Shown here: piece after piece, positions 5,054 to 18,570 of the stretch | Layout: every line of letters starts with the position of its first letter | Position numbering within the stretch: position 1 is the first letter of the stretch | IMG/VR virus record: IMGVR_UViG_3300048590_000229 | Coordinates: 1 to 22,834 of that record | Origin: a virus | DNA: 22,834 bases | Direction: 5' to 3' (one strand) | The notes under the pieces: model-generated | Databases searched by the model: none | Seen by the model: only the letters and a program-made list of their open reading frames with translations | Told to the model about the DNA's origin: nothing | Program-made: the position numbers and the translations under genes

Positions 5054-5300
5054 GCGCCCCGTCGTGACCACGGCCACCGCAGTCTCAGCGTGGGGCCGGC
5101 GCGTGCTCGACCTGCAGGAGCTGGGCTGGACCTACCGGCAGATCGCGGTCGCGGTGAAGTGCAGCCCCTCGCGCGTCTGGCAGATGGTGAGCGATCCGCA
5201 GTACGAGCCGATGCACTCCATGGGCCAGCGCATGCGCCGGCTGCACCTTCGCACCATCCTGGCCGAGCGCAAGCGGCGCCAGCAGGCCGGACAAGCCTGA
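5025..5300 (+). CDS. Small HTH-type DNA-binding protein, last gene of the early operon
   Basis: About 91 aa from ATG 5025, or about 78 aa from GTG 5064. Neither start has a strong ribosome binding site; GTG 5064 would avoid the 29-nt overlap with the upstream gene. The core contains a helix-turn-helix: LDLQELGWTYRQIAVAVKC then SPSRVWQMVSDPQ. A basic C-terminal helix follows (LHLRTILAERKRRQQAGQA). It is plausibly a phage transcriptional regulator or DNA-binding accessory. Its stop codon TGA at 5298-5300 forms the first three bases of the repeated intergenic element that precedes the tailspike gene. Confidence 0.6.
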   Translation: MPPGLTPRTERPVVTTATAVSAWGRRVLDLQELGWTYRQIAVAVKCSPSRVWQMVSDPQYEPMHSMGQRMRRLHLRTILAERKRRQQAGQA

Positions 5301-5340
5301 CCCGCATCCGGTACGCGGATGGCGCGATAAAGCGCGGGCA
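5298..5340 (+). promoter_or_regulatory. Repeated late-module element, copy 1 (candidate phage promoter)
   Basis: The 18-nt block TGACCCGCATCCGGTACG at 5298-5315 is identical to copy 2 and 16/18 to copy 3. It starts at the stop codon of the upstream gene. ATAAAG lies at 5327-5332, GATAAA resembling a -10 box, two bases further away than in the other copies. GCGGGC at 5334-5339 can pair with GCCCGC at 5355-5360. The element sits directly before the four-gene adhesion module. Promoter function is inferred from position and repetition; the spacing to the TGAC-like -35 is too long for ordinary sigma-70. Confidence 0.6.
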
Positions 5341-5363
5341 ATGAAGCACAGGACGCCCGCCGC

Positions 5364-8309
5364 ATGATCCAGTTCACCGCCTCCGTCTGGGCCGACATCC
5401 TCGCGCAGAGCACCGCGGCGGGCCGCGCCACGGTCCTGGCCGGGAAGTTCCCGTCGGGCGGCACGATCGAGCTGCTCGACGCAGCCGCCTCCGTGATCCG
5501 CACGATCGACATGGGCCCGTGGACGGTGAGCGGCGCGTATGCCGTCCCGGGCACCTACACCGACTCGGCGCTCGGTGGCGGCACGCCGGCCGTTGCGGTG
5601 TTCAAGGCCGGTGCGACCGAGATCATGCGGATGACGTGCGGCACGTTGGCCGGCGCCGACTACCGGCTGCTCGCCAACATCGTGGCCGGCGTGCCGATCC
5701 GGCGCGGCCCGTTCGCGGTGCTGTTCTTGCCGCCGCCCGCACCTGGCACGTCGCAGCCGAGTATCGTCTCCGCGCCCACGATCAGCGGCGTGGCCAGGGT
5801 CGGCCAGACGCTCACCGCCACGCCAGGCGTCTACGCGGGCAATCCGGTGCCCGCTGTGGCTCGACAGTGGTATTCCGGCGCGACTGCCATTTCCGGTGCC
5901 TCGGGCCTGTTCGTCACGCTCACCGGCGACGAGCTGGGCGGCATCATCACGTTCAAGGAAGTGCCGTCGAACTCGGTAGGCTCGATCACGGCAGTGAGCA
6001 ACTCGCTCGGGCCGGTGGTGGCGGCGGACCTGAATGCCGACGCGATCCCGGCGACCATCCAGATCAACCAGGGCGGGACGTTCGACCTGACGCCCTACGT
6101 CGTGGGCGGCGTGCCTCCCTACACGGCTGCGGTGGCGGTTGGCTACAGCCTGCCGACCGGGGTGACGCTGACCGGCCCGATGGAGCTGTCGGCGGCCATC
6201 GACGCGCCGCTGACCGAGGAACCGCTCCCGACGGTCAAGTTCGACATCGACGACTCTGCGCCGGTGGCGGCCACGCTGCCTGAGTTCGGATTGCTGTCCG
6301 AAACCGGCGGCACAAATCTGCCATTTACGGCCGCACATCCGTTCGATGAAGGCGCGGTCACGGCTGGAAATTCCGTGGTCGCCGACGGACTTTCGACTTG
6401 GCAGTGCATCCCGATCAACACCTGGCCGGACGGCTCGATCAGGCTGGCGTGGGTCAGTGGCCGGGCCACGCTGACGCAAAACGTCGCTCGCACATTGCAA
6501 CTGTCGGTCGGCCCGGCGAATGCAGGCACGCACCAATCGCTCGCCACGCTCCGGGCAGGGCTCACTTCCGGGTCAGTACAGGTGGCAGGTGACACCATTG
6601 ACCTGCCGACGCTGATCGCGGAAACGCCGTTCGACCTGTTCGGGAACGGCACGAATGCCATCTTCACCGGGCCGGAATGCTCGTACTGGATCTGGCGCAG
6701 GCGGGTCGCTGGCACCGCTCATCTTGAGCTGTTCGTGCCGATCCGGCTCTATGCTGGCGGCGCTATCGAAGTCATCACGCCGTGGGTGCAGAACGGGGAC
6801 TTCCTCGTTCCGGCTCCGACGGCCTACACCATCGGAATCACGCTGACGCTCAACGGCACGGTGCGGTACTCGCAGCCGTCGGTGACGATCTATCACCACC
6901 AGGTGCTGCCCCTCGTCAACGGCGATTCGACCAGCCGGAGCTACTGGTACAGCGGCACCGATCCGAAGGTGATCCCGTTGCACGACACGGCGGCGATTCA
7001 AGCCACGAAGCTTACGCCGAAATACCGCAGCCTGACGCCGAGCAGCACCAAGCTCGACAGTCTGACGCAGACGTACACCCCAGGGTGGAAGGGGAACACC
7101 ACAACTGGCATGAGCGACCCAGGGGCTAGCCCGCACATCGGCCCGCTCCCTCAGTGGTGTGCGCTGTACCTGACGAGCGGCGGGGATCGCCGGGCCTACG
7201 AGTGCGTGATTGCGAATGGCCTGTCGGCGGGGGCTCGGCCCGCCCACTACCGCGACAGCGGCGGCTACGGGGAGAACACCGGCCGCTACCTCAAGCAATC
7301 GAGTTACCCACAGGCGTCTCTGGCATCGCAGATGACTCCGGTAATACCGACAGGAACGGGCGGAACGCCATACGGAATCGACACCGCGCACCAGCCCTCG
7401 CTTGCCTACCTGCCCTGGATGCTGACCGGCGACATCTACTTCCTAGAGGAGCAGATGGCGTGGGTCACGCACAACTACATCTATTACAACTGGCTGTTCC
7501 GCGACCAGGCAGAAGGCATCTATCACCTGTCGAGCCGTGAGGAGCGCGGCATGGCGTGGGCTTTGCGGTCGCTGGGCCATCTGGTGGCTTCGGTTCCTGA
7601 CACGCACACTCTGCGCAGCGAGTGGATCAGCCAACTCCAATACAACGTGATCCACTGGCACGACAACTACGTGACCGGGACCGAGGGTACGGGGCTGGCG
7701 AACAACCTCGGCCTGATCCACAGAAAGTCTGGCGTTAGCGTCTATCAGAGCGCGAGCGACCTGGGAACGGCAACCCCGGTCGCGTGGTACGGCGCACCGT
7801 GGATGATGCACTTCCAGACAATGGCGCTGAAGATTTGCAAGGACATCGGGCCTGACATTTCCGCGCCCGCGCAATCTGCTCTCGACGCGCTGGTGCAATT
7901 TTCCGGGGGTTTCGCCACTGGCCTGGCTGGCGGAAACAGCAGCGGGTGGCCGTTCACGCGCTTTGCGCAGTATGTGTTCCCGATGCAGGACACGTTCGCG
8001 GGGGGCGGAGACTGGATGCCAAGCTTCGCGGCGGCGTGGACGTCATACAAGCTTGACCAGGGATTGCCGGAGGAAACGCCGTCGGCTGGCGATCCGATCT
8101 GGATACAGAACAGCACGATCAACTACGTCAGCGCGTTGCAGTGGGCCGAATCGAGTGCGCCAGCGACCGCCCTTGCTGCGCTGGCCTGTGCTGTCGAGGA
8201 AGGTGTGACCGGCGCTCAGGATGGTTGGAACAGCGTCACCGGAGCATCAAACTTTAGTACGGCGAGCATGAACGATTCGCCGCAATACGCACTGGAGCCG
8301 AGGCAATGA
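5364..8309 (+). CDS. Large tailspike/fibre candidate with Ig-like domains and a polysaccharide-lyase-like C-terminus
   Basis: A 981-aa probable receptor-binding protein. Residues 1-125 form an N-terminal module probably used for virion attachment. About 130-215 is a phage-type Ig-like domain (PTISGVARVGQTLTATPGVY...QWYSGATAISGASG), and about 218-275 a second putative Ig fold (PYVVGGVPPYTAAVAVGY). From about 290 a beta-sandwich-like segment carries TWPDGSIRLAWVSG. A helical region with HQPSLAYLPWMLTGDIYFLEEQ, SSREERGMAWALRSLGHL and WHDNY follows at about 670-800 and resembles alpha/alpha-toroid lyases of the exo-rhamnogalacturonan lyase (PcRGLX/YetA-like) type. Depolymerase activity toward a host glycan is inference; no catalytic residues can be assigned. 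It is first in the adhesion operon after the repeated element, with a weak AGGA 10 nt before the ATG. GC content drops from about residue 310 onward. Confidence 0.72.
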   Translation: MIQFTASVWADILAQSTAAGRATVLAGKFPSGGTIELLDAAASVIRTIDMGPWTVSGAYAVPGTYTDSALGGGTPAVAVFKAGATEIMRMTCGTLAGADYRLLANIVAGVPIRRGPFAVLFLPPPAPGTSQPSIVSAPTISGVARVGQTLTATPGVYAGNPVPAVARQWYSGATAISGASGLFVTLTGDELGGIITFKEVPSNSVGSITAVSNSLGPVVAADLNADAIPATIQINQGGTFDLTPYVVGGVPPYTAAVAVGYSLPTGVTLTGPMELSAAIDAPLTEEPLPTVKFDIDDSAPVAATLPEFGLLSETGGTNLPFTAAHPFDEGAVTAGNSVVADGLSTWQCIPINTWPDGSIRLAWVSGRATLTQNVARTLQLSVGPANAGTHQSLATLRAGLTSGSVQVAGDTIDLPTLIAETPFDLFGNGTNAIFTGPECSYWIWRRRVAGTAHLELFVPIRLYAGGAIEVITPWVQNGDFLVPAPTAYTIGITLTLNGTVRYSQPSVTIYHHQVLPLVNGDSTSRSYWYSGTDPKVIPLHDTAAIQATKLTPKYRSLTPSSTKLDSLTQTYTPGWKGNTTTGMSDPGASPHIGPLPQWCALYLTSGGDRRAYECVIANGLSAGARPAHYRDSGGYGENTGRYLKQSSYPQASLASQMTPVIPTGTGGTPYGIDTAHQPSLAYLPWMLTGDIYFLEEQMAWVTHNYIYYNWLFRDQAEGIYHLSSREERGMAWALRSLGHLVASVPDTHTLRSEWISQLQYNVIHWHDNYVTGTEGTGLANNLGLIHRKSGVSVYQSASDLGTATPVAWYGAPWMMHFQTMALKICKDIGPDISAPAQSALDALVQFSGGFATGLAGGNSSGWPFTRFAQYVFPMQDTFAGGGDWMPSFAAAWTSYKLDQGLPEETPSAGDPIWIQNSTINYVSALQWAESSAPATALAALACAVEEGVTGAQDGWNSVTGASNFSTASMNDSPQYALEPRQ

Positions 8310-9481
8310 CGCGCGTCTCGATCACTCGCAAGATCAACGTCCGCGATCCTGTCAGTCTGGTCCCGGCCTTGGGATATGCCTCGCTGATCGCCCCGGCACT
8401 CGCGCATCGTGCCGTAAAACCGTCCGGCATGACGAACGGGCAGTTCGACAAGGCGCTGTTCGAGGCATACGGGTCCGGCATCTTCGTTCAGGACTATTCG
8501 GCTGATGGCGCGTTCGTGGTCGCCGGATCAGGTGGTCATGCTCATTTTGAGATCGTCGGCGGCGCCGGATTCGACTTCACCACGCGCCAGTGGTTCTGGC
8601 GCGGAACGCCCGGATACAACGAGACAGGCGAGCCGAGCTTGGAGTCCGACACCAACGGTTCGCCCTGGTACGAGCTGAACGGATACCCGCAGGTTCCGTG
8701 CCCGCCACATCCCTACGCGAACATGGCCCAGGTCCGTGCAGCGGATGGCGGGGGGGCGAAGGGTTCGGTGCTGCACATTGCCCGCTCGGCGGTGGCCGGT
8801 GAAGCTCGGGACAGCTACACCGCGCATAAGTTCGACTGCGCCAGCGGGCAGTGGACTCGTGCCGCAAGCTCGCCGTGCCCGACTTCGGCCTACACGGTGG
8901 AGGGCGCTGCGGTATTCGATCCGGTGGCGAAGCGGTATTACCGGGTGCCGTCTCAGGCCAATTCGATCACGTCGCTTGCCTACCTCGATGCGCAGACGTG
9001 GGAATGGGGGTCGATCTCGTGGCCAGGGTTCCTGTCCTCTGGCAACACGACCTACAACAAGGGCTTCTACTGGTCCGGGAATGGCAAGCGCCTGCTGATT
9101 ATCGCTTGGGGCACGCTCTGGCAGGCGCTCGATCTCGATAACCCGTCGGCGGGGTGGACGACGCTCACGATGAGCGGCGACTCGCCCCTCGTCGATACGA
9201 ACGTGCCGGCTTGGCACCAGGCCGACGGGAGCCTCTACATCCGCTTCTCGTCGAGCGCGTCCGGCAACTCGCTGCGAAAGGTCGTGCCGCCCGCGAACCC
9301 GCTTTCGGGCACATGGGTGGTATCCACGGTGACGCTGCTCGGCGACACGGTTCCCGAGTTCATCGGATCGGCTGGCGGTGGCGTGCCATCGACAGCAGCG
9401 TACCAGTCCCTTTTCTACATCCCGAGCCTCCAGTGTCTCGGATGGGTCACCGCAGGCGGCGTTGCGCTGCTGAATCCATAA
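8306..9481 (+). CDS. Beta-propeller/kelch-like phage surface protein
   Basis: A 391-aa protein starting by ATGA overlap with the tailspike gene. After an N-terminal segment (about 1-50), repeated blade-like units appear, each with small residues, a Trp and a turn: FDFTTRQWFWRG, KFDCASGQWTRAASSP, VFDPVAKRYYRVPSQ, YLDAQTWEWGSISWPG, LDLDNPSAGWTTLTMSG and LSGTWVVSTVTLLG. This is the pattern of kelch/galactose-oxidase-type propellers, which in phages occur in fibres and glycan-binding proteins. No signal peptide is present. It is likely a virion accessory adhesin or a protein assembled with the tailspike. The fold is inferred from repeat pattern only. Base composition matches the lower-GC part of the preceding gene. 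Confidence 0.6.
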   Translation: MTRVSITRKINVRDPVSLVPALGYASLIAPALAHRAVKPSGMTNGQFDKALFEAYGSGIFVQDYSADGAFVVAGSGGHAHFEIVGGAGFDFTTRQWFWRGTPGYNETGEPSLESDTNGSPWYELNGYPQVPCPPHPYANMAQVRAADGGGAKGSVLHIARSAVAGEARDSYTAHKFDCASGQWTRAASSPCPTSAYTVEGAAVFDPVAKRYYRVPSQANSITSLAYLDAQTWEWGSISWPGFLSSGNTTYNKGFYWSGNGKRLLIIAWGTLWQALDLDNPSAGWTTLTMSGDSPLVDTNVPAWHQADGSLYIRFSSSASGNSLRKVVPPANPLSGTWVVSTVTLLGDTVPEFIGSAGGGVPSTAAYQSLFYIPSLQCLGWVTAGGVALLNP

Positions 9482-9490
9482 GGAATCGCG

Positions 9491-10762
9491 ATGCCTTCTG
9501 TAGCCGCAACCTCAGCAAAAACCAACAACTCGTCGACGCTTACGAAATCCGGGATCACAGTCGGCACCGGCCAGGCGCTTCTGGTCAAACTCTACGTCGC
9601 CAACTGGGACAGCACCGATATTTCAAGTACGCCGTCGGTGACATTCAACGGCGTGGCGCTGACCAAGCACAGCGAGGAGCTTTCTACGTCCGGGAACGGG
9701 GCGAAGAACTATGCGGCAGTCTGGTATGGATCGCCGTCCGCCGCGACCGCCTCGGTAGTTGCATCGCTTGGTGGTAACTACCAAGTCTCTTTCATGGAAA
9801 TCGAGGTCGTCTCCGACCCCGAATCGCCGCTGATCCGGTCCGTGGATTTCGTGACCGGCGATGCTGCATCGGAAGTGTCGAACTCGATCACGACGGTTTC
9901 CGGCGATCTGGTTACTGACCTGCTCCGCTGGCGCAACGACTCGGGAAGCTGGAACGCGCTAACGCCTGGAGGCGGGCAGTCGGAACTGATCGACGAAGCC
10001 GGCCCGCCGGAAGCCGAGAACTACTGCATGGCGTCGTCTTACGAGCAGGCGACCGGCACCAGCACCACGATGTCATACACGCTGACCGATGCAGGCAGCG
10101 ATGGCACGGGGTTCGTGCATATCCTGGTGGCCCTGACTGGCTCTGCTCCCGGGACAACGGTCACCCTGACCCCCGACCCGGCTTCCGTTCAGGTCGGCAG
10201 CACGCGCACCTTCACGGCCACCCGCAGCGCAGCGGCCGGAGCTGGCGGGGTGACGTACAACGTCGCGTCGAGCAATCCTGCAGTCGCAACGGTGCCCACC
10301 CCGCAGACGCTCACCGAGGCCGATAGCGACCTGACGTTCGATGCCACGGGAGTGAGCGTCGGCACGGCGAACATCACCATCACCAACGCGGCCGACTCGA
10401 GCGAGACGGATACCGTGGCGCTGACGGTGACGGCGGTCACGACCAAGCGGGCGAAGTTCCTCGTGCATCCCGACTTTGCCTCGGCGACCGGCATCACGAT
10501 CGAGGTCAACGAGGCGCCGACGGGCGGTGCTCTGACGGGCGCGAAGCTGGGCTTCACGACCGGCGTCGCCGCGGAGGCCACGCTGGAAGGCGGCCAGGCG
10601 GTCATCAAGGTGAACGCCGCCGACGTAGGCGCTTCTGCCTTGGCAGCTGCGACCAGCGTGCGGGCGATCTTCAAGGGCCTCGCGGCGTCAGGTTCGGCCT
10701 TGGGCAGCGGAGCTGAGGCCGGCAGCGTCGTCGTGGCCACCGGCACGATCATCGAGGAATAA
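9491..10762 (+). CDS. Phage fibre protein with a bacterial Ig-like (BIG2-type) domain
   Basis: A 423-aa Ser/Thr/Ala/Val-rich protein with AAGGA about 8 nt upstream of ATG 9491. Residues about 1-215 form a beta-rich jelly-roll-like domain (SGITVGTGQALLVKLYVA, FMEIEVVSDPESPLIRSV, GFVHILVALTG). Residues about 220-318 are a BIG2-like Ig domain (TVTLTPDPASVQVGSTRTFTA...ATGVSVGTANITITNAADS). The final about 100 residues (KFLVHPDFASATGITIEVNE...SVVVATGTI) form another beta domain. No catalytic motif was seen. Probably a structural fibre or receptor-binding accessory; Ig domains in phage proteins typically bind carbohydrate or decorate virions. It lies 9 nt after the propeller gene and 4 nt before the next gene, within one operon. 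Confidence 0.65.
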   Translation: MPSVAATSAKTNNSSTLTKSGITVGTGQALLVKLYVANWDSTDISSTPSVTFNGVALTKHSEELSTSGNGAKNYAAVWYGSPSAATASVVASLGGNYQVSFMEIEVVSDPESPLIRSVDFVTGDAASEVSNSITTVSGDLVTDLLRWRNDSGSWNALTPGGGQSELIDEAGPPEAENYCMASSYEQATGTSTTMSYTLTDAGSDGTGFVHILVALTGSAPGTTVTLTPDPASVQVGSTRTFTATRSAAAGAGGVTYNVASSNPAVATVPTPQTLTEADSDLTFDATGVSVGTANITITNAADSSETDTVALTVTAVTTKRAKFLVHPDFASATGITIEVNEAPTGGALTGAKLGFTTGVAAEATLEGGQAVIKVNAADVGASALAAATSVRAIFKGLAASGSALGSGAEAGSVVVATGTIIEE

Positions 10763-10766
10763 CGGC

Positions 10767-12902
10767 ATGTCGAACGTCGCGCTGACCACCCGGGACGGGT
10801 TCGCCAACGTCGCGGTGACGACGCGCGTCGAGACGCCGATCGCGCCGACGATCACGACCACCGCGCTGCCCGGCGGCACGGTCGGCGCGGTCTACAACCA
10901 GACGATCCAGGTCACCGGCACGGCCCCGATCACCTGCACGATCCAGTCCGGCTCGCTGCCGCCCGAACTGACGCTGAATGCGACCACGCGGCAGATCACC
11001 GGGCCTGCCCTGGCCACGCCTGGGCTTTACGAGTTCACGGTGCGCGCGACCAACGCGGCCGGCTTCGACGACCAGCTGCTTTCCATCCTGGTGCCGAACG
11101 AGGGTTCGGGCGGCACGGCGCCCGTGGTCACGACGGTCACGCTGGTGCCGGCGACGGCCGAGATCGCGGCCGGCGGTGAAACTGTCGATCTGGTCGCCAC
11201 CGTGGAGGATGAGAACGACGACCCGATCCCGAATCTGACAGGCACGCTTGGCAGCACGGCGATCGCATCGGCAGCAGGCGCGCAGCTGGCGCCGACCGAT
11301 GCTTCCGGCCAGGCCACAGTGCGGGTGACGAGCGCCAGCGAGGCCGGCACGGCCAACATCACGATCACCTTCGACGGCGTGGTGAGCAACGCCGCGGTCA
11401 TCACAGTGCGCTCGGGCGTCGAGGCGCCTACCGACATCACGCTCTCGGCGTCGTCGGTCCCCGAGAACTCGGCCAATGGCACGGTCATCGGGGCGCTGGC
11501 CGCCGTCGACCCGGATCAGCCCACCGGACACACGTTCAGCCTGACTGCCGACGCGGGCGGGCGCTTCGGCATCAGCGGCTCGAACCTGGTGGTGGCCAAC
11601 GGGTCGCTGCTGAACCGCGAAGCGGCGAGCAGCCATTCGATCACGGTCCGCGTGACCGACGCCGACGGGCTCACCTTCGACAAGTCGTTCACGATCACGG
11701 TCACGAACGTCAACGAGGCACCCACCGGCATCGCGCTGTCGGCCAGCTCGATCATCGAGGGGGCGGCAAACGGCGCGATCGTGGGCTCGCTCACCCGGAC
11801 CGACCCGGATTCCGGCGACACGGGCACCTTCTCGCTCGATGACGACGCTGGCGGGCGCTTCGCGATCGTGGCCACGGGTGCCACGACGGCGAACCTGGTG
11901 GTCGCTGACGGCTCGCTGCTCGACTACGGAACCGCGCAGAGCCATGCGATCACGGTGCGCTTCACCGACGCGGGCGGCCTGTTCACCACGCAAGCCTTCA
12001 CGATCTCGGTGCTCGAGGTCGCCTCGGGCGTCACGAGCGTCACGGTCACCCCGGCCGGCGCCTCGATCGCGAGCAACCAGACGCAGCAGTTCAGCGCGGT
12101 CGTGGCCGGCTCGCCCACGCCCAGCCAGGATGTCACCTGGTCGGTGGTCGCCGGCCCGGGCTCGATCAACGGCGCTGGCCTTTACACGCCGGCCGGCGGC
12201 GGCACGCCTACCGTCCGGGCCACGTCGGTGCAGGCCCCGAGCATCTTCGGCGAGGCCACGCTCACGGTCGTGGCGGTCGACGAGTCGGCGCCGTCCGTCT
12301 CGATCACCGCTTCGGCGTTGTCGGTCACCGAGCCCGGCTCGATCCTGCTCACGGCCAACGCGACCGACAACATCGGCGTGACCGAGGTCCGGTTCTATCG
12401 CGATGGCGCGCAGATCGGCCAGCCGCTGCTTGCCGCGCCATTCCAGCGCACGCTCACCGTTGGATCGAGCGCTGACAACGGGACGTTCGCCTTCACCGCC
12501 CGGGCCAACGACGCCGCGGGCAACTCCGCGCTGAGCGCGCCGCTCTCGATCACGGTCAACGTGGCCGGGGCGCCGCTGGCGCGCTCCACCGGACTTGCCG
12601 ACATGATCGAGATTCCCCGCAAGGACACCACCCGGGCCATCGTGTTCCAGCTCGCCGACGCGACGACCGGCGATCCGCTGTCGGCCGCGGTGCCCACCGT
12701 GAGCCTTTCGCGCAACGGCGGCGCGCCGCAAGCCGCCACCGGCGTGGTGACCGAAACCCAGATCCCTGGCACCTACGTCTACATGCCCAGCGAGGCCGAC
12801 GTGAACGTGGAGGGCGACATGCTGATCCTCGTCTCGGCCACCGGGGCGGCGGCGCTCGCGCCGATCACCACCCGGGTCGTCACCCCCTACGGCAAGCGCT
12901 GA
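10767..12902 (+). CDS. Multi-Ig/cadherin-repeat phage fibre protein
   Basis: A 711-aa protein built as a string of beta-sandwich domains. A putative Ig (He_PIG-like; GGTVGAVYNQTIQVTG...GLYEFTVRATNAAG) lies at about 22-112. A BIG1-like domain follows at about 120-214. Two tandem cadherin-like repeats occupy about 217-315 and 316-415; both carry SxSS(V/I)xE, DAGGRF, LVVA(N/D)GSLL and SHxITVRxTDAxGL. A BIG2-like domain lies at about 418-505, and a BIG/Ig domain with DNIGVTEVRFYRDG at about 508-610. The C-terminal about 100 residues differ and may be an attachment domain. Cadherin repeats usually bind Ca2+ through acidic residues (DPD, DAD, NVNEAP present here). Probably an adhesion fibre. GAGGA lies 8 nt before the ATG. 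Its TGA begins copy 2 of the repeated element. Confidence 0.7.
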   Translation: MSNVALTTRDGFANVAVTTRVETPIAPTITTTALPGGTVGAVYNQTIQVTGTAPITCTIQSGSLPPELTLNATTRQITGPALATPGLYEFTVRATNAAGFDDQLLSILVPNEGSGGTAPVVTTVTLVPATAEIAAGGETVDLVATVEDENDDPIPNLTGTLGSTAIASAAGAQLAPTDASGQATVRVTSASEAGTANITITFDGVVSNAAVITVRSGVEAPTDITLSASSVPENSANGTVIGALAAVDPDQPTGHTFSLTADAGGRFGISGSNLVVANGSLLNREAASSHSITVRVTDADGLTFDKSFTITVTNVNEAPTGIALSASSIIEGAANGAIVGSLTRTDPDSGDTGTFSLDDDAGGRFAIVATGATTANLVVADGSLLDYGTAQSHAITVRFTDAGGLFTTQAFTISVLEVASGVTSVTVTPAGASIASNQTQQFSAVVAGSPTPSQDVTWSVVAGPGSINGAGLYTPAGGGTPTVRATSVQAPSIFGEATLTVVAVDESAPSVSITASALSVTEPGSILLTANATDNIGVTEVRFYRDGAQIGQPLLAAPFQRTLTVGSSADNGTFAFTARANDAAGNSALSAPLSITVNVAGAPLARSTGLADMIEIPRKDTTRAIVFQLADATTGDPLSAAVPTVSLSRNGGAPQAATGVVTETQIPGTYVYMPSEADVNVEGDMLILVSATGAAALAPITTRVVTPYGKR

Positions 12903-12941
12903 CCCGCATCCGGTACGGCGGCATCCATAGAGTGCGGCGGG
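12900..12941 (+). promoter_or_regulatory. Repeated late-module element, copy 2 (candidate phage promoter)
   Basis: The block TGACCCGCATCCGGTACG at 12900-12917 starts at the stop codon of the fibre gene. CCATAGAGT at 12925-12933 lies at exactly the same offset as in copy 3. The element ends just before the terminase small subunit gene. It is proposed as a promoter for the packaging genes by position and repetition; this is inference. Confidence 0.6.
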
Positions 12942-12958
12942 AATAGCCCCGACCGCAC
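12932..12958 (+). promoter_or_regulatory. Leader hairpin just upstream of the terminase small subunit
   Basis: GTGCGG at 12932-12937 can pair with CCGCAC at 12953-12958, with an inner GGG (12939-12941) to CCC (12947-12949) pairing around the loop. The hairpin ends 2 nt before ATG 12961, where no Shine-Dalgarno sequence is visible, so it may influence translation initiation. There is no T-run, so it is not a standard terminator. Confidence 0.4.
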
Positions 12959-12960
12959 CT

Positions 12961-13488
12961 ATGTCCAGGAAGCTCAACCCCCACGGGATCACCGAGAAGC
13001 AGGCGCGCTTCGCTCAGGAGTACCTGATCGACTGCAACGCCGCGCAGGCCGCAAAGCGGGCCGGCTACGGCGCGCCCTACGAGCGGCGCGGCTATGAAGT
13101 GCTGAAGAACCCAAGGGTGGCCGCACTCATCAAGGCCGAGCAGGCCAAGTTGCGCGAGAAAGCCGGTATCGAAGCTGAAGATGTCGTGAACCAGGTCGCG
13201 GCGATCGTGTTCGCCGACCCGCGCAAGACGGTCGACAAGAAGGGCGTGCCGCTCGGGCTGCACCAGCTGGACGATGCGACCGCTGCGGCCGTGGCCAGCT
13301 ACAAGGTGACGGAGGGCGAGCAGTCGCGAACCGTCGAGGTCAAGTTCTGGGACAAGAACAGCGCGGCCGAGAAGCTGATGAAGCACCTGGGCCTGTTCGA
13401 GAAGGACAACCGCCAGCGTGCCGACCCGCTGGCCGAGCTGGTGCAGATGCTTCATGAGCGCGGCTCCCGACTCCCTGTTCGTCGTTGA
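12961..13488 (+). CDS. terS: Terminase small subunit (Terminase_2 type)
   Basis: A 175-aa protein with the hallmark start of the Terminase_2 family: GITEKQARFAQEYLIDCNAAQAAKRAGY (in pieces GITEKQARFAQEYL and IDCNAAQAAKRAGY), then VLKNPRVAALIKAEQ. This N-terminal HTH region recognises phage DNA for packaging. The middle is a helical oligomerization region and the C-terminus (SAAEKLMKHLGLFEKDN) is typical of the family. It would form a ring that recruits the large subunit to concatemeric DNA. ATG 12961 is the only plausible start and lacks a clear Shine-Dalgarno sequence. The 3' end overlaps the large-subunit gene by 35 nt. Confidence 0.9.
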   Translation: MSRKLNPHGITEKQARFAQEYLIDCNAAQAAKRAGYGAPYERRGYEVLKNPRVAALIKAEQAKLREKAGIEAEDVVNQVAAIVFADPRKTVDKKGVPLGLHQLDDATAAAVASYKVTEGEQSRTVEVKFWDKNSAAEKLMKHLGLFEKDNRQRADPLAELVQMLHERGSRLPVRR

Positions 13489-16012
13489 GGACTGGGAGAG
13501 CCCGCACTGGCGGCTCAACCACCTTTACACGATCGTCGACGACGAGGGCGCCGAAGTCCCGTTTCGCATGAACGGCGAGCAGGAGAAGCTGTTCGCGAAC
13601 CTCTGGACCTGGAACCTTGTGCTCAAGGCTCGCCAGGTCGGCTGCACGACACTCGTTGCGCTGATGGCGCTCGACCAGTGCCTTTTCAACACCAATTTCT
13701 CAGCTGGCGTCATCGCGCACAACCTGGACGACGCCACCAAGATTTTCCGCAACAAGGTCAAGGCTCCCTACGACAAGCTGCCGGAAGCGCTTCGCGAGAA
13801 AGTGCCCCTAGCATCGTCGACCTCGAGCGAGCTGGTGTTTGCCAACGGGTCGTCCATCGGCGTGGGCACGTCCATGCGCTCGGGCACGCTGCAATTCCTG
13901 CACATCAGCGAGTTCGGGAAGATCTGCGCCAAGTTCCCGGACAAGGCCAAGGAGATCGTCACCGGATCGTTTCCGACGCTCAAGGCCGGGCAATTCCTGT
14001 TCGTCGAGTCCACCGCGGAAGGCCAGGAGGGCTACTTCTACGAGTACGTGCGGGACGCACTTGCCGCGCAGAAGGAAGGGCGCCAGGAAACCGTCCTCGA
14101 CTTCCGGCTGCACTTCTTCCCGTGGTGGGAGAAGAAGGCCAACGCGATCGACCCGACCGGCGTGGTCATCGACAGCGAAATGTCGAAGTATTTCGTCCGG
14201 CTGGAGAAGGATCACGGCATCCGGCTCGCGCCCGAGCAGAAAGCCTGGTACGTCAGGACCGAGGCCAAGCTCAAGGGCGACATGAAGCGGGAGCACCCGT
14301 CCTACTGCATCGCCGGTACGGAACCAGTGTTCTCGCCCGCTGGCATCACGCAGATGAAGGATGTGCCGGTTGATGGCGCCACGGTCACGCGCTTCTTCGA
14401 TCAAGGCGAGAAGCCGGTATTCACACTGACAACGGATCTTGGCTACGAACTGACCTGTACCGCCGATCACCGCATCAAGACGCAGAACGGGTTCGTCGAG
14501 GCCCAATACCTCAAGCCAGGCGATCCGGTTCTGCTCGGACTTGGCGCTGGCGGAGGGTCGCCACAGATTGTCACATGGCATCCGTTGCCCTGCATCGAGT
14601 CTCGAATCGCGATCGATGAGGATTTCGCCGAGTTCGTGGGCTTCTTCATGGGCGATGGTTCACTGGGGCGGGATGTGCTCTCCGTCGTCTGCACCGCCGA
14701 GGACGTTGACGTGATTGATCGCGTGAAAACGCTCATCCGGCAGCACTTCGGATGCGAGCCCGGCTCGCGGGCGATCGGGTCGAACGCCGGTGGCGTAGAA
14801 ATTCGGGTCGCGAATGTGCGCCTCAAGTCAATGTTCAGCGCGCTCGGGCTGCTTCGCGAGAACGGCTCAGGCGGCATGATGCGAAAGGTCCACGTACCAG
14901 ACTTCATCAAGCGGTCGCCGACCCCGGTGGTGCGCGCCTTCTTGCGGGGACTATTTGAAGCGGATGGGTTTGCCCAGCGCGATGGAACAGGGGTGAAGTT
15001 CTTCACGAAGTACGCCGATTTCGCGCGTGACGTTCAACTGCTTTTGCTGCGCTTCGACATTACCTGCCGGCGCGCGCGTCACGACAAACACAACAGCGCC
15101 GGCTACACCTACGAAGGATGGGAGCTCACGCTGCGAACTGCGGAGGCGGCGCACTTTTCCGAGGCGATTGGTTTCGTCTCAGCCCGCAAACAGGCTCGCG
15201 CGATGATCCGTAAGGATGTGGCCGACGGCTATCGCGCCAGGCGCTTGCGGATCGACGGTATAGACACGGTGCGCAGCATCGTACCGGCCGGCGTGGCGCC
15301 CACCTTCGACATCACGACCGACACACATGAGTTCGTAGCCGGCGGGATCGTGGTGCACAACTGCGAAGAAGCCTTCGAGGTCGCCATCGACGGCGTGATC
15401 TACGCGCGCGAGCTCGAGCTGATGCGTCGGCACGGCCAGATCACCGACGTGCCATGGGATCCGTCGCTGCCGGTGAACACGTTCTGGGATCTGGGCCTGG
15501 GCGATGCCATGTCGCTGTGGTTCCACCAGCGCGTCGGCATGCAGAACCGGCTCATCCGCTACTTCGAGGATGCCGGCGAGGGTCTGTCGTACTACGTGAA
15601 CGAGATCCGCAGCCACGGCTACACGATGGGCACGCACTACCTGCCCCACGACGCCGACAACCGCCTGATGGGCGAGAACGTCGAGACGACGGCCGACATC
15701 CTGCGCCGGCTGCTGCCCGGCCAGTTCGTCGTGGTGGACCGGATCCGCGAGATCAAGGACGGGCTGAACAAGACCCGCGAGTTCCTGCCGAGCTGCTGGA
15801 TCGACCGGACCAACTGCGCCGCCGGGATCAAGGCGCTCGACTCGTACCGCTACGAGTGGGACGAGAAGCTGGGCCGCTGGAAGAACCACCCCTTGCACAA
15901 CTGGGCCTCGCACGCGGCCGATGCGCTGCGGCAGGGCGCCCAAGGCTTCAAGCCGCTGGGTGCCGCTGAGCCGGGCGGCTTCACCCGCCATCGAAGCAGC
16001 TGGAGAGCATGA
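13454..16012 (+). CDS. terL: Terminase large subunit precursor containing an intein
   Basis: An 852-codon precursor; removing the 352-residue intein leaves a 500-aa protein, the normal size for this packaging ATPase/nuclease. The ATPase domain has the variant Walker A KARQVGCTT (residues 58-66, Cys64 where Lys or Phe are more usual; the Lys of this family precedes the loop), then TNFSAGVIAHNLDDATKIFRNK in pieces, and a Walker B-like LHISEFGK with E153. The intein interrupts HPSY/CEEAF after residue 284. After it comes the RNase-H-like nuclease domain with FWDLGLGDAMSLWF, YLPHDA and NWASHAADALRQ. The protein translocates DNA into the prohead through the portal and cuts it. ATG 13454 is chosen because an upstream GTG (13418) reads out-of-family sequence. 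The stop overlaps the portal start (ATGA). Confidence 0.92.
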   Translation: MSAAPDSLFVVEDWESPHWRLNHLYTIVDDEGAEVPFRMNGEQEKLFANLWTWNLVLKARQVGCTTLVALMALDQCLFNTNFSAGVIAHNLDDATKIFRNKVKAPYDKLPEALREKVPLASSTSSELVFANGSSIGVGTSMRSGTLQFLHISEFGKICAKFPDKAKEIVTGSFPTLKAGQFLFVESTAEGQEGYFYEYVRDALAAQKEGRQETVLDFRLHFFPWWEKKANAIDPTGVVIDSEMSKYFVRLEKDHGIRLAPEQKAWYVRTEAKLKGDMKREHPSYCIAGTEPVFSPAGITQMKDVPVDGATVTRFFDQGEKPVFTLTTDLGYELTCTADHRIKTQNGFVEAQYLKPGDPVLLGLGAGGGSPQIVTWHPLPCIESRIAIDEDFAEFVGFFMGDGSLGRDVLSVVCTAEDVDVIDRVKTLIRQHFGCEPGSRAIGSNAGGVEIRVANVRLKSMFSALGLLRENGSGGMMRKVHVPDFIKRSPTPVVRAFLRGLFEADGFAQRDGTGVKFFTKYADFARDVQLLLLRFDITCRRARHDKHNSAGYTYEGWELTLRTAEAAHFSEAIGFVSARKQARAMIRKDVADGYRARRLRIDGIDTVRSIVPAGVAPTFDITTDTHEFVAGGIVVHNCEEAFEVAIDGVIYARELELMRRHGQITDVPWDPSLPVNTFWDLGLGDAMSLWFHQRVGMQNRLIRYFEDAGEGLSYYVNEIRSHGYTMGTHYLPHDADNRLMGENVETTADILRRLLPGQFVVVDRIREIKDGLNKTREFLPSCWIDRTNCAAGIKALDSYRYEWDEKLGRWKNHPLHNWASHAADALRQGAQGFKPLGAAEPGGFTRHRSSWRA
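14306..15361 (+). mobile_element. In-frame intein with LAGLIDADG homing endonuclease in terL
   Basis: A 352-residue intein. The N-terminal splice block begins with Cys1 (CIAGTEPVFSPAGITQMKDV). The block B motif TADHRI (TxxH, about residues 51-56) follows. The two LAGLIDADG (DOD) motifs are FVGFFMGDGS at about 109-118 and FLRGLFEADGF at about 212-222. The C-terminal blocks F/G are FDITTDTHEFVAGGIVVHN, ending in His-Asn. The +1 extein residue is Cys (codon 15362-15364). All residues known to be needed for protein splicing (Cys1, block-B Thr/His, penultimate His, terminal Asn, Cys+1) are present, so it looks splicing-competent. The endonuclease aspartates are also intact, suggesting an active homing element. 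It sits at the ATPase/nuclease junction of the terminase. Confidence 0.93.
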
Positions 16013-18399
16013 TGCAGCAGCGCTACTACGAACCGATCCAGTCCAGCCGCCTCGTCAATCCGGACGACCATCGCTTTGCCCAGGGCGGGCGCGACTTCGC
16101 CGAGCCCGAGAACGGGATGCCGCTGCGCACCCTGGAGCATTTCCTCGAGGATCTGCGCTGGGAGCCGACCTGGCGCACCGACGCGGACCGGGACTGCGAC
16201 TACTACGACAGCAACCAGCTCGACCCCGAGACGATCCACAAGCTCGAGGAAAAGGGGCTGGGCCCGCTCATCCGCAACATCATCAAGCCCACGATCGATG
16301 CCGTGCTCGGCCTGGAGGAGCGCACGCGCACCGACTGGAAGGTGGTGAGCGACTACGACGACGAGCAGGATGTGGCCGAGGCGCTGTCGGTCAAGCTGGT
16401 CGAGGCCGAGCGCGAGACGCGCGCCGACAACGCAATCTCCGACGCCCACGCCGGCCAGGTCAAGGCCGGGTTCGCCGCGGTCGAGGTCAGCCGGTCCAGC
16501 AATCCCTTCTGCTACCCGTACCGGGTCGAGCCGATCCACCGGCGCGAGCTGTACTGGGATCCGCGCTCGCGCAAGCCGGATTGGTCGGATGCCCGTTTCG
16601 TCATGCGAAAGCGCTGGTTCGACACGGACGTGGCAGCGGCCTATTTCCCGGCGCACGCGCAGCTGATCCGATTCGCGGCCGAAAACTGGGTCGGATGGGA
16701 GGAAGTCGCGCGCATCAGCGACTTCGACACCACGAGCCTCGTGCGCAGCCTGGAGCAAGAGCGCAGCACGTCGATTTCGGAAATGGAGTGGCGCGACAGC
16801 GCGCGCGGGCGCGTGTGCATCTACGAGGTCTGGTATCGGGTCTATCACCGCGGCTGGATCCTCAAGCTGCCGCGCGGCCGAACCGTCGAGTTCAACCAGG
16901 CCAACCCGCAGCACTTGGCGATCGTGACGGCCGGCGTGGTCGAGCCGATCGAGGCGGTCTACGACAAGCTGCGCTGCGCCTACTTCGTGGGCCCGCACCG
17001 GGTCGCGGACTTCGGCAGCAAGCGGCGCCGCTTCCCGTACATCCCGTTCTGGGGCTACCGGGAGGATCTGACCGGCGTGCCCTACGGGCTCATCCGCTCC
17101 ATGGTGAGCGTGCAGGACGAGATCAACGCGCGCCTGGCCAAGATGATGTGGCTGCTCAGCTCTCGGCGCACCGTCATCGACGCCGACGCTCCGGCGGTCG
17201 AGTTCAACACCCACTCGGACCTGACCCGCGAGATAGCCCGGGCCGATTCCTACATCGTGCTCAACCCGGGCCGGCGAAACGCCAACGCGATCACGGTCGA
17301 CGAGAACCAGCAGCTCGCCGACGCGCAGCACCGGGCGATGCTCGATGCGGTGGCCGCGATGCCCATGGTGAGCGGCATCTACGCTCCGCTGATGGGAAAT
17401 GTGAGCCAGGCCACGGCGGCGAGCGCGATCAAGCAGCTGATCGACCAGGGCACGACCACGCTCGCCGAGCTCAACGGCAACTACATGACGGCGCGCCGCG
17501 CGGTCGGCGAGGCGCTGCTCGAGCTGGTGCGCGAGGACAACGCGGACATTTCGGAGCAGGTCACGGTCGACACCGGCGTGTCCAAGCGCCAGGTCTACAT
17601 CAACCGGCGGGCGAAAGACCCGGGCACGGGCGCCGAGATCGTCGAGAACAGCGTGACGAACGCCTCGATCAAGGTGCAGCTGGCAGACGTACCGAACAGC
17701 CCGAGCTACCGCCAGCAGCAGTTCACGCTGCTCACCGAGGTCGCCAAGAGCCTGTCGCCCGAGGCCCAGCAGATCATGGTGCCGTTCATCATCGAGGCGT
17801 CCGACCTGCCCAAGCGGCGCGAGATCGCCAAGCTGCTGCGCGAGAAGATGGGCATTGCACTGGACGACAAGAGCCCGGAGGGCCAGGCCGCCAAGCAGAA
17901 GGCCGAACAGCAGGCCATGGCCGAGGCCGAGCAGCTGGCCAACAAGTTCGACGCCGAGCTGGAGGAATTGCAGGCCAAGGCGGCGAAGCTACGCGCCGAA
18001 ACCGACAAGATCCGCACCGATATTGCCCGCTCCGGCATGGACGAGCAGGGCAAGGCGGCGGCCAATGGCGAGCTCGACCGGGTGCGCGGCGACTACGAAA
18101 GCCGGATGCAGGAACTCACCCGCCAGCTGCAGGACGAGAAGATCAAGGCGGCCGACAGCAGGATGAAGTTGCAGGCCGAAACCGAGGCACGCGAGGCCGA
18201 AGCGCGCGAGGAAACCCAGCGCGAGCGCATCCGGGCCGAGGCCACGGTGAGCGCCGCCGAGATCGCCGCCAGCGCGAAGAAGGCCGAGGACAAGATCAAC
18301 GAGCGCATCGACGCGCTGCAGGCCGAGATGAGCGATCGGATCGGCGAAGTGGGCAAGAAGGCCGGCGAGAAGAAGAAAAGCGACGACGCCGAATCCTGA
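16009..18399 (+). CDS. P22-type portal protein with a long C-terminal coiled coil
   Basis: A 796-aa portal protein. The core (about 30-600) matches large podovirus portals: DCDYYDSNQLDPETIHKLEE and LIRNIIKPTIDAVLGLEERT (both near the N-terminus), IPFWGYREDLTGVPYGLIRS, VQDEINARLAKMMWLLSSRR, NVSQATAASAIKQLIDQG and LTEVAKSLSPE. It forms the dodecameric ring at the packaging vertex that couples terminase and neck. From about 617 to 790 the sequence is a charged Ala/Glu/Lys/Arg heptad region, a very long coiled coil comparable in place to the helical barrel of P22 gp1 (725 aa). ATG 16009 overlaps the terminase stop; a second ATG follows at 16012. The TGA at 18397-18399 begins copy 3 of the repeated element. 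Confidence 0.88.
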   Translation: MMQQRYYEPIQSSRLVNPDDHRFAQGGRDFAEPENGMPLRTLEHFLEDLRWEPTWRTDADRDCDYYDSNQLDPETIHKLEEKGLGPLIRNIIKPTIDAVLGLEERTRTDWKVVSDYDDEQDVAEALSVKLVEAERETRADNAISDAHAGQVKAGFAAVEVSRSSNPFCYPYRVEPIHRRELYWDPRSRKPDWSDARFVMRKRWFDTDVAAAYFPAHAQLIRFAAENWVGWEEVARISDFDTTSLVRSLEQERSTSISEMEWRDSARGRVCIYEVWYRVYHRGWILKLPRGRTVEFNQANPQHLAIVTAGVVEPIEAVYDKLRCAYFVGPHRVADFGSKRRRFPYIPFWGYREDLTGVPYGLIRSMVSVQDEINARLAKMMWLLSSRRTVIDADAPAVEFNTHSDLTREIARADSYIVLNPGRRNANAITVDENQQLADAQHRAMLDAVAAMPMVSGIYAPLMGNVSQATAASAIKQLIDQGTTTLAELNGNYMTARRAVGEALLELVREDNADISEQVTVDTGVSKRQVYINRRAKDPGTGAEIVENSVTNASIKVQLADVPNSPSYRQQQFTLLTEVAKSLSPEAQQIMVPFIIEASDLPKRREIAKLLREKMGIALDDKSPEGQAAKQKAEQQAMAEAEQLANKFDAELEELQAKAAKLRAETDKIRTDIARSGMDEQGKAAANGELDRVRGDYESRMQELTRQLQDEKIKAADSRMKLQAETEAREAEAREETQRERIRAEATVSAAEIAASAKKAEDKINERIDALQAEMSDRIGEVGKKAGEKKKSDDAES

Positions 18400-18440
18400 C
18401 CCGCATTCGGAACGCTTGCGCCCATAGAGTCCGGGCGCAT
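18397..18440 (+). promoter_or_regulatory. Repeated late-module element, copy 3 (candidate phage promoter)
   Basis: TGACCCGCATTCGGAACG at 18397-18414 matches the other copies at 16 of 18 positions and starts at the portal stop codon. CCATAGAGT at 18422-18430 is identical, and at the same offset, as in copy 2. The element opens the longest gap in the window, upstream of the scaffold and capsid genes, which require strong late expression. Promoter function is inferred. Confidence 0.6.
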
Positions 18441-18570
18441 GAGGACCGCACAGCAATCAAGCAAGGCAACCACGCGGCGCGCGAGCGCTGCGCGGTCCTC
18501 TTTCGCCCGGCCGCTGGGACAAACGGCAATCCAAACCCGGACCTATCCGAGAACTAGGAGCGTGTGGTGA
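18439..18570 (+). CDS. Possible 43-aa leader reading frame (uncertain)
   Basis: An ATG 15 nt after the start of the ATAGAG box opens a 43-codon frame (MRTAQQSSKATTRRASAARS...). Its TGA at 18568-18570 overlaps the scaffold GTG start (GTGA), as coupled genes do elsewhere in this genome. The peptide is Arg/Ser/Thr-rich, matches nothing I recognise, and much of it coincides with strong inverted repeats. It may therefore be a leader peptide or simply an open frame by chance. Confidence 0.2.
   Translation: MRTAQQSSKATTRRASAARSSFARPLGQTAIQTRTYPRTRSVW
18441..18500 (+). promoter_or_regulatory. Leader with two mutually exclusive hairpins before the scaffold gene
   Basis: Outer stem: GAGGACCGC at 18441-18449 is a perfect inverted repeat of GCGGTCCTC at 18492-18500, extended by CAGC/GCTG after one mismatch, and followed by TTTC. 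Inner stem: 18470-18480 pairs with 18485-18495 around a GCGA tetraloop (11 positions, one G-U and one A-C). The two stems share 18492-18495, so they compete. This could be an attenuator-like or mRNA-stabilising leader, or a weak intrinsic terminator; the T-run is too short to call it confidently. Confidence 0.45.

Follow-up and report, generated by a model that had tools for sequence, protein, structure and literature searches.

The C protein of phage Mu activates four late promoters, Plys, PI, PP and Pmom (PMC4461284). In the middle promoters of T4 it is the MotA box, centred near -30, that replaces the -35 element (PMC6755090), and the late promoters of T4 genes e and soc sit within an inhibitory leader hairpin (PMC3014915). 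Here we describe a virus fragment in which three copies of a short element stand between genes, and we think it somewhat probable that they make up a family of late promoters in this phage, with one such promoter heading each late block of the fragment.

The window, by which we mean the whole stretch of DNA analysed, is a 22,834-base virus fragment of 66% G+C. It carries replication genes (a DnaB-like helicase and RusA), a gene for a 78-aa helix-turn-helix (HTH) protein, large genes of the adhesion type whose products have Ig and cadherin domains, and late genes for terminase, a P22-like portal, a scaffold-position protein and the coat. The closest named phage is Achromobacter phage CF418P1 (coat identity 56%), and the wider group comprises F116-type Pseudomonas phages and P22-portal Stx phages. 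The closest relative, L006/L007, has 76% coat identity to the window. An intein splits the gene for the large terminase subunit (13454-16012); its endonuclease domain is of the LAGLIDADG type (LAGLIDADG_3 E 1.7e-14), and its splicing domain scores slightly below the cutoff (E 2.6e-8). The replication region contains two HNH homing-type endonuclease genes (428-1351 and 2118-2642). The genes and copies of the element are as follows.

5064..5300, + strand: 78-aa HTH protein, candidate regulator; copy 1 begins at its stop codon, and it occupies the place of the relatives' Q-position gene
5297..5343, + strand: copy 1 (block 5298-5315, ATAAAG 5327-5332, then CGGGCAATGA), preceding the adhesion-type genes
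12899..12946, + strand: copy 2 (block 12900-12917, CCATAGAGT 12925-12933), preceding the terminase and portal genes
12961..13488, + strand: terminase small subunit, terS (Pfam Terminase_2 E 1.2e-32)
16009..18399, + strand: P22-like portal (Pfam P22_portal E 1.2e-107)
18396..18442, + strand: copy 3, with 2 mismatches (block 18397-18414, CCATAGAGT 18422-18430), preceding the scaffold and coat genes and having a diverged homolog in L007
19617..20906, + strand: major capsid protein (Pfam Phage_capsid_3 E 1.6e-104)

The element consists of two boxes. The first is the 18-nt block TGACCCGCATCCGGTACG, present at 5298 and 12900 (18/18 identical in both) and at 18397 (16/18). In all three copies the TGA stop of the upstream gene supplies the exact first bases of the block, and a C precedes it. 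The second box is ATARAG: ATAAAG at 5327 in copy 1, and ATAGAG at 12927 and 18424 in copies 2 and 3, which have CCATAGAGT in common at equal offset. These features had been pointed out in a sequence-only reading of the window, and a recount confirmed them all; the spacing from CTGACC to ATARAG, which that reading had put at 21-23 nt, measures 24, 22 and 22 nt in copies 1, 2 and 3. On the + strand of the contig ATARAG occurs only three times, each time adjoining a block copy. A chance origin of the three copies was considered and is ruled out by two comparisons. At up to 3 mismatches, both strands of the 22,834-bp record hold 3 matches to the block, where dinucleotide shuffles lead one to expect 0.04, and none of 100 such shuffles gave 3 matches. 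When 25 gene ends were compared over 19 nt, beginning 1 base before the stop codon, the three pairs of copies had 19, 17 and 17 identities; the best other pair had 13.

In pairwise alignment the likeness runs for about 50 nt, in copies 1 and 3 beyond ATARAG into CGGGC-AATGA, while the stretch between block and ATARAG differs among copies in both sequence and length. Because block and ATARAG are conserved while the spacer and the downstream DNA have diverged, selection rather than fresh duplication accounts for the likeness. A scan of both strands of the early region of the window found no copy of the block, as the sequence-only reading had noted. Its further claim, that one copy heads each late module, stands for the part seen, the record being a 22,834-bp virus fragment.

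The boundary between early and late genes in related phages provides a useful comparison. In the relatives the early region is closed by a gene of about 207 codons, at the position of lambda Q, which matches nothing in Pfam or PHROG. In ten distinct relatives (L022, L028, L029, L031, L033, L034, L036, L037, L039 and L040) the TGA stop of this gene is overlapped by TTGACA or TTGACT, so that in this group TGA plus C often serves as the core of a late -35 box. The TTGACW is followed by a 17-nt spacer, by CAAAAT (CAGAAT in L040) and, after these, by a hairpin that is rich in G+C and has a U-tract; the spacers were counted by eye, with L029 confirmed by a promoter scan as positive control. Judged from its sequence, this layout is that of a lambda pR'-like sigma-70 promoter followed by a terminator, and putative late promoters overlapping a stop codon are thus usual in this phage group. 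By analogy, the ten relatives support what had been proposed for the window, namely that a shared stop codon saves space. The orphan family of about 207 aa (L029 2847-3542, with homologs in L022, L028, L031, L033, L034 and L036-L040) is a candidate new antiterminator family, its possible Q-type role being suggested by position only.

Copy 1 lies at the same early/late boundary as the relatives' promoter and starts CTGACC. It has no -10 box 16-18 nt downstream, and the relatives' Q-position gene, searched against a database that included the window, has no match there. Moreover, between 5000 and 22834 of the window no sigma-70-like site was found (TTGACA-like and TATAAT-like boxes 16-18 nt apart; 0 found, 1.3 expected); late transcription must therefore begin or proceed by another route. 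An alignment of copies 1-3 with the relatives' pR'-like promoter was not significant, and homology of the two was rejected.

If the copies are promoters, the 18-nt block would replace the -35 element and would be bound by a phage-encoded specificity factor, while a weak -10 (TAGAGT, or TAAAGC in copy 1) would be opened by the host RNA polymerase. With TAGAGT at -12 to -7, the block would extend from about -40 to -23, with its centre near -31. Each block starts TGAC because the TGA stop plus C yields this core, the end of the preceding gene being reused. What we infer is that the copies act as promoters, where the -10 lies, which protein is the factor and that the host polymerase is used. Of the readings considered, a promoter-type element appears the best supported, by the placement of the copies, by a diverged copy that follows a terminator-like hairpin and by the want of a late sigma-70-like site.

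The diverged copy was found in L006/L007, where CTTACCCCTCGGCAACACATGCGCTCAGAGACT lies 50 nt past the stop codon of an adhesin gene, 3' of a terminator-like hairpin and 5' of a conserved scaffold leader. Only 3 of 2000 shuffled sequences align with copy 3 as well as this site does, in what was one of twelve comparisons. The likeness is suggestive of a diverged copy of the element, with 20 nt from CTTACC to the aligned AGAGAC in L007. Since the copy sits 3' of the terminator-like hairpin, a new start would be needed there. It lies off any stop codon yet has the same layout, and stop anchoring is therefore not essential. In the same stretch of L006/L007 (1-1300) the adhesin-type gene stands immediately 5' of the scaffold gene, unlike in the window; given this adjacency, late modules have been reordered.

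No further full copy of the element came to light elsewhere. Exact and gapped scans of IMG/VR gave no match to the full motif; the block alone gave 12, all unlike the window copies at N positions, and none starting at a gene stop with ATARAG downstream. The full motif was likewise absent from 797 bacterial genomes. At up to 2 mismatches, the block occurred in three related host genomes about as often as a reversed-pattern control and in four phage contigs not at all; a BLAST search of named phages with the element gave no match above noise. A search of relatives for block plus ATARAG, the check that the sequence-only reading had proposed, thus yielded one diverged copy, in L006/L007, and no further full copy in the fetched contigs. 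In two distant relatives (L097 3482 and L098 1017) the portal stop codons are followed by CCCCCATTCGG and CCCCCGTTCG, which are like the start of copy 3 and without ATARAG; the portal-end likeness in L097 is TGACCCCCATTCGG.

Several points count against a promoter family. TAGAGT matches the -10 consensus at 4 of 6 positions only, the spacing varies by 2-4 nt, the candidate factor matches generic HTH models alone, and the motif rests essentially on one fragment plus one diverged copy. In addition, RNA hairpins are predicted beside the copies:

5332..5363, + strand: predicted RNA hairpin 3' of ATAAAG, its 3' arm adjoining the ATG at 5364 (z -1.8)
12927..12962, + strand: RNA hairpin predicted to extend from ATAGAG into the start codon of terS (z -5.4)
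18431..18511, + strand: long predicted RNA hairpin 3' of CCATAGAGT (z -4.1)

At copies 1 and 2 the predicted hairpins begin at or inside the proposed -10/start region, which would count against promoters there: a transcript from the proposed start would miss the 5' arm. As folded, they would speak both against a simple promoter and for a role in RNA. They may also form a second layer of control at these two copies, the entire hairpin being present in read-through RNA only, as in the logic of T4 gene e (PMC3014915).

A role in RNA is also brought to mind by a motif in the spacer between portal and scaffold genes, just 5' of the scaffold leader:

18506..18527, + strand: RNA motif CCC-n-stem-NGGGAYAN-stem, candidate H-type pseudoknot, 5' of the scaffold gene and distinct from the three-copy element
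18538..18561, + strand: scaffold leader CGGACCTATCCGAGAACTAGGAGC, kept in relatives, with a short hairpin and a Shine-Dalgarno sequence

The motif consists of CCC, 1-3 nt, a stem of 4-7 bp, NGGGAYAN and the stem again, and is located before the scaffold leader. In 1.2 Mb of coat-related loci it has 29 forward matches, 26 of them before a scaffold gene, vs. 2 reverse matches. In other phage loci, 1.1 Mb in all, there were 0 forward and 3 reverse. It is found at L005 22162-22180 and L007 1236-1257, in L021, L024, L029 and L101, and in others. All four pairs of the stem change on both sides (98% paired; covariation 0.41 vs. 0.07 shuffled), and the covariation is destroyed when the pairing partner is slid. 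The CCC/GGG pairing is nearly constant, and covariation speaks neither for nor against an H-type pseudoknot. Rfam, run on six sources of the motif including the window, matched only tRNAs and not the motif. In most relatives a terminator separates the motif from the scaffold leader, which is nearly invariant across the group (CGGACCTATCCGAGAACTAGGAG) and has a hairpin loop, CCTA, complementary to the Shine-Dalgarno TAGG. It is a natural guess that the motif is a candidate site for translational or read-through control of scaffold and coat synthesis. According to a 2010 review, the pseudoknot of T4-type gene 32 is possibly the sole viral case that autoregulates translation (PMC3014915).

Could it be that the block is transcribed from upstream and that its RNA, together with the hairpin 3' of it, signals antitermination, processing or stability between modules? 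We regard this as doubtful. A hairpin is predicted after all three copies, two of them clearly beating shuffles, and in the relatives the same spacer between portal and scaffold genes does contain a covarying RNA motif. But the three hairpins are unlike one another in sequence, in size and in where they lie, prediction gave no structure common to them, and the block has no shared structure of its own. Copies 1 and 2, moreover, have no U-tract terminators after them. The window's counterpart of the relatives' motif is the separate feature 3' of copy 3; homology of copies 1-3 with that motif was also tried directly and rejected, the alignment not being significant.

It is decidedly unlikely that the block plays no part in regulation and merely marks a joint, a boundary left when late modules were duplicated or reshuffled. 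The different module order of L006/L007 would suit such a history. Against it, exact stop anchoring, together with ATARAG at a conserved distance across diverged sequence, points to selection on the two boxes, and the diverged copy in L007 has the same layout without a stop codon.

The sequence-only reading had suggested that a phage factor or a dedicated polymerase reads the element. Its promoter-type sense is retained here, but promoters for a dedicated RNA polymerase of the phage, single-subunit or other, are very improbable. Although the two-box spacing is non-canonical and the rest of the genome lies outside the fragment, the spacing differs among copies (24, 22 and 22 nt, and 20 nt in L007), the sequence flanking the box is unconserved (copies 2 and 3 differ in the 7-9 nt adjoining ATARAG, which is where the strongest conservation of a T7-type core would be expected), and the fragment has no polymerase gene. 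Programmed readthrough of a leaky UGA-C, adding a shared PA(S/F)GT tail in the same frame after each stop, is hardly credible: copies 2 and 3 can be read onward in frame (PASGTAASIECG, PAFGTLAPIESG), but copy 1 meets TAA nine codons on, the three proteins are not related to one another, the copy in L007 lies away from a stop codon, and the conservation of ATARAG would be left unexplained.

Returning to the promoter family, the first candidate for its specificity factor is, by position only, the 78-aa HTH protein. It matches PHROG 6223 (E 1.1e-7) and, short of the Pfam cutoff in both cases, HTH_23 (E 2e-4) and Sigma70_r4_2 (E 0.01). Its helices are predicted at residues 10-19, 24-31, 35-43 and 54-75 (pLDDT 72.5), and a fold search returned generic HTH proteins alone (E >0.4). 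It does not reach Pfam Mor, and it has 11 of 26 residues in common with a Mor-like protein of L029. No relatives were found in named phages or in IMG/VR; there is one weak match (35%), in L138, and no relative was found linking the HTH protein with the box.

A bolder proposal, which we consider rather unlikely, is that within this group a single long-range Q-type late promoter has been replaced by local late promoters with a new box, and that their starts lie in the 5' arms of hairpins which would hide the start codons of read-through RNA, so that late genes would be translated only from their own promoters. If the promoter family itself is real, a phage of the P22-portal type would have traded one antiterminated late operon for separately driven modules. 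Whole modules could then move and yet keep their late timing, and module order does differ in the closest relative. The concrete outcome is an 18-nt site and a 78-aa candidate factor.

In closing, the comparison with known systems can be made explicit. Mu drives each of its late operons from a separate late promoter, and these promoters have non-consensus -10 and -35 elements and a common activator site at the -35 region (PMC4461284); in the window the common box at three module heads may be such a site, but its sequence is another one and the factor here is a candidate only. With the T4 middle promoters (PMC6755090) the window would share a box near -31 with a -10 element downstream, if TAGAGT is the -10. 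T4, however, needs a good -10, whereas the window's is weak (4/6), and no AsiA or MotA homolog is known for the window. At copies 1 and 2 the proposed start falls within the 5' arm of a hairpin that extends to the start codon, which recalls T4 e and soc, except that the window hairpins are predicted only, and one of the two is weak. A T7-type promoter has a contiguous conserved core of about 23 bp that includes the start, unlike the variable interval between block and ATARAG. Lambda pR'/Q, as seen in the relatives and at pR' of Stx phages (PMC6266700), shares the genome position at the end of a regulator gene and the TGAC over its stop codon. It differs in that the relatives have TTGACW-N17-CAAAAT plus a terminator as the sole promoter seen, whereas the window has another box, in three copies, and no Q-position gene. 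Thus, a set of activator-type late promoters would be of a known kind, and what is new, on the evidence of one fragment, is the box and its contrast with the single late promoter of the relatives.
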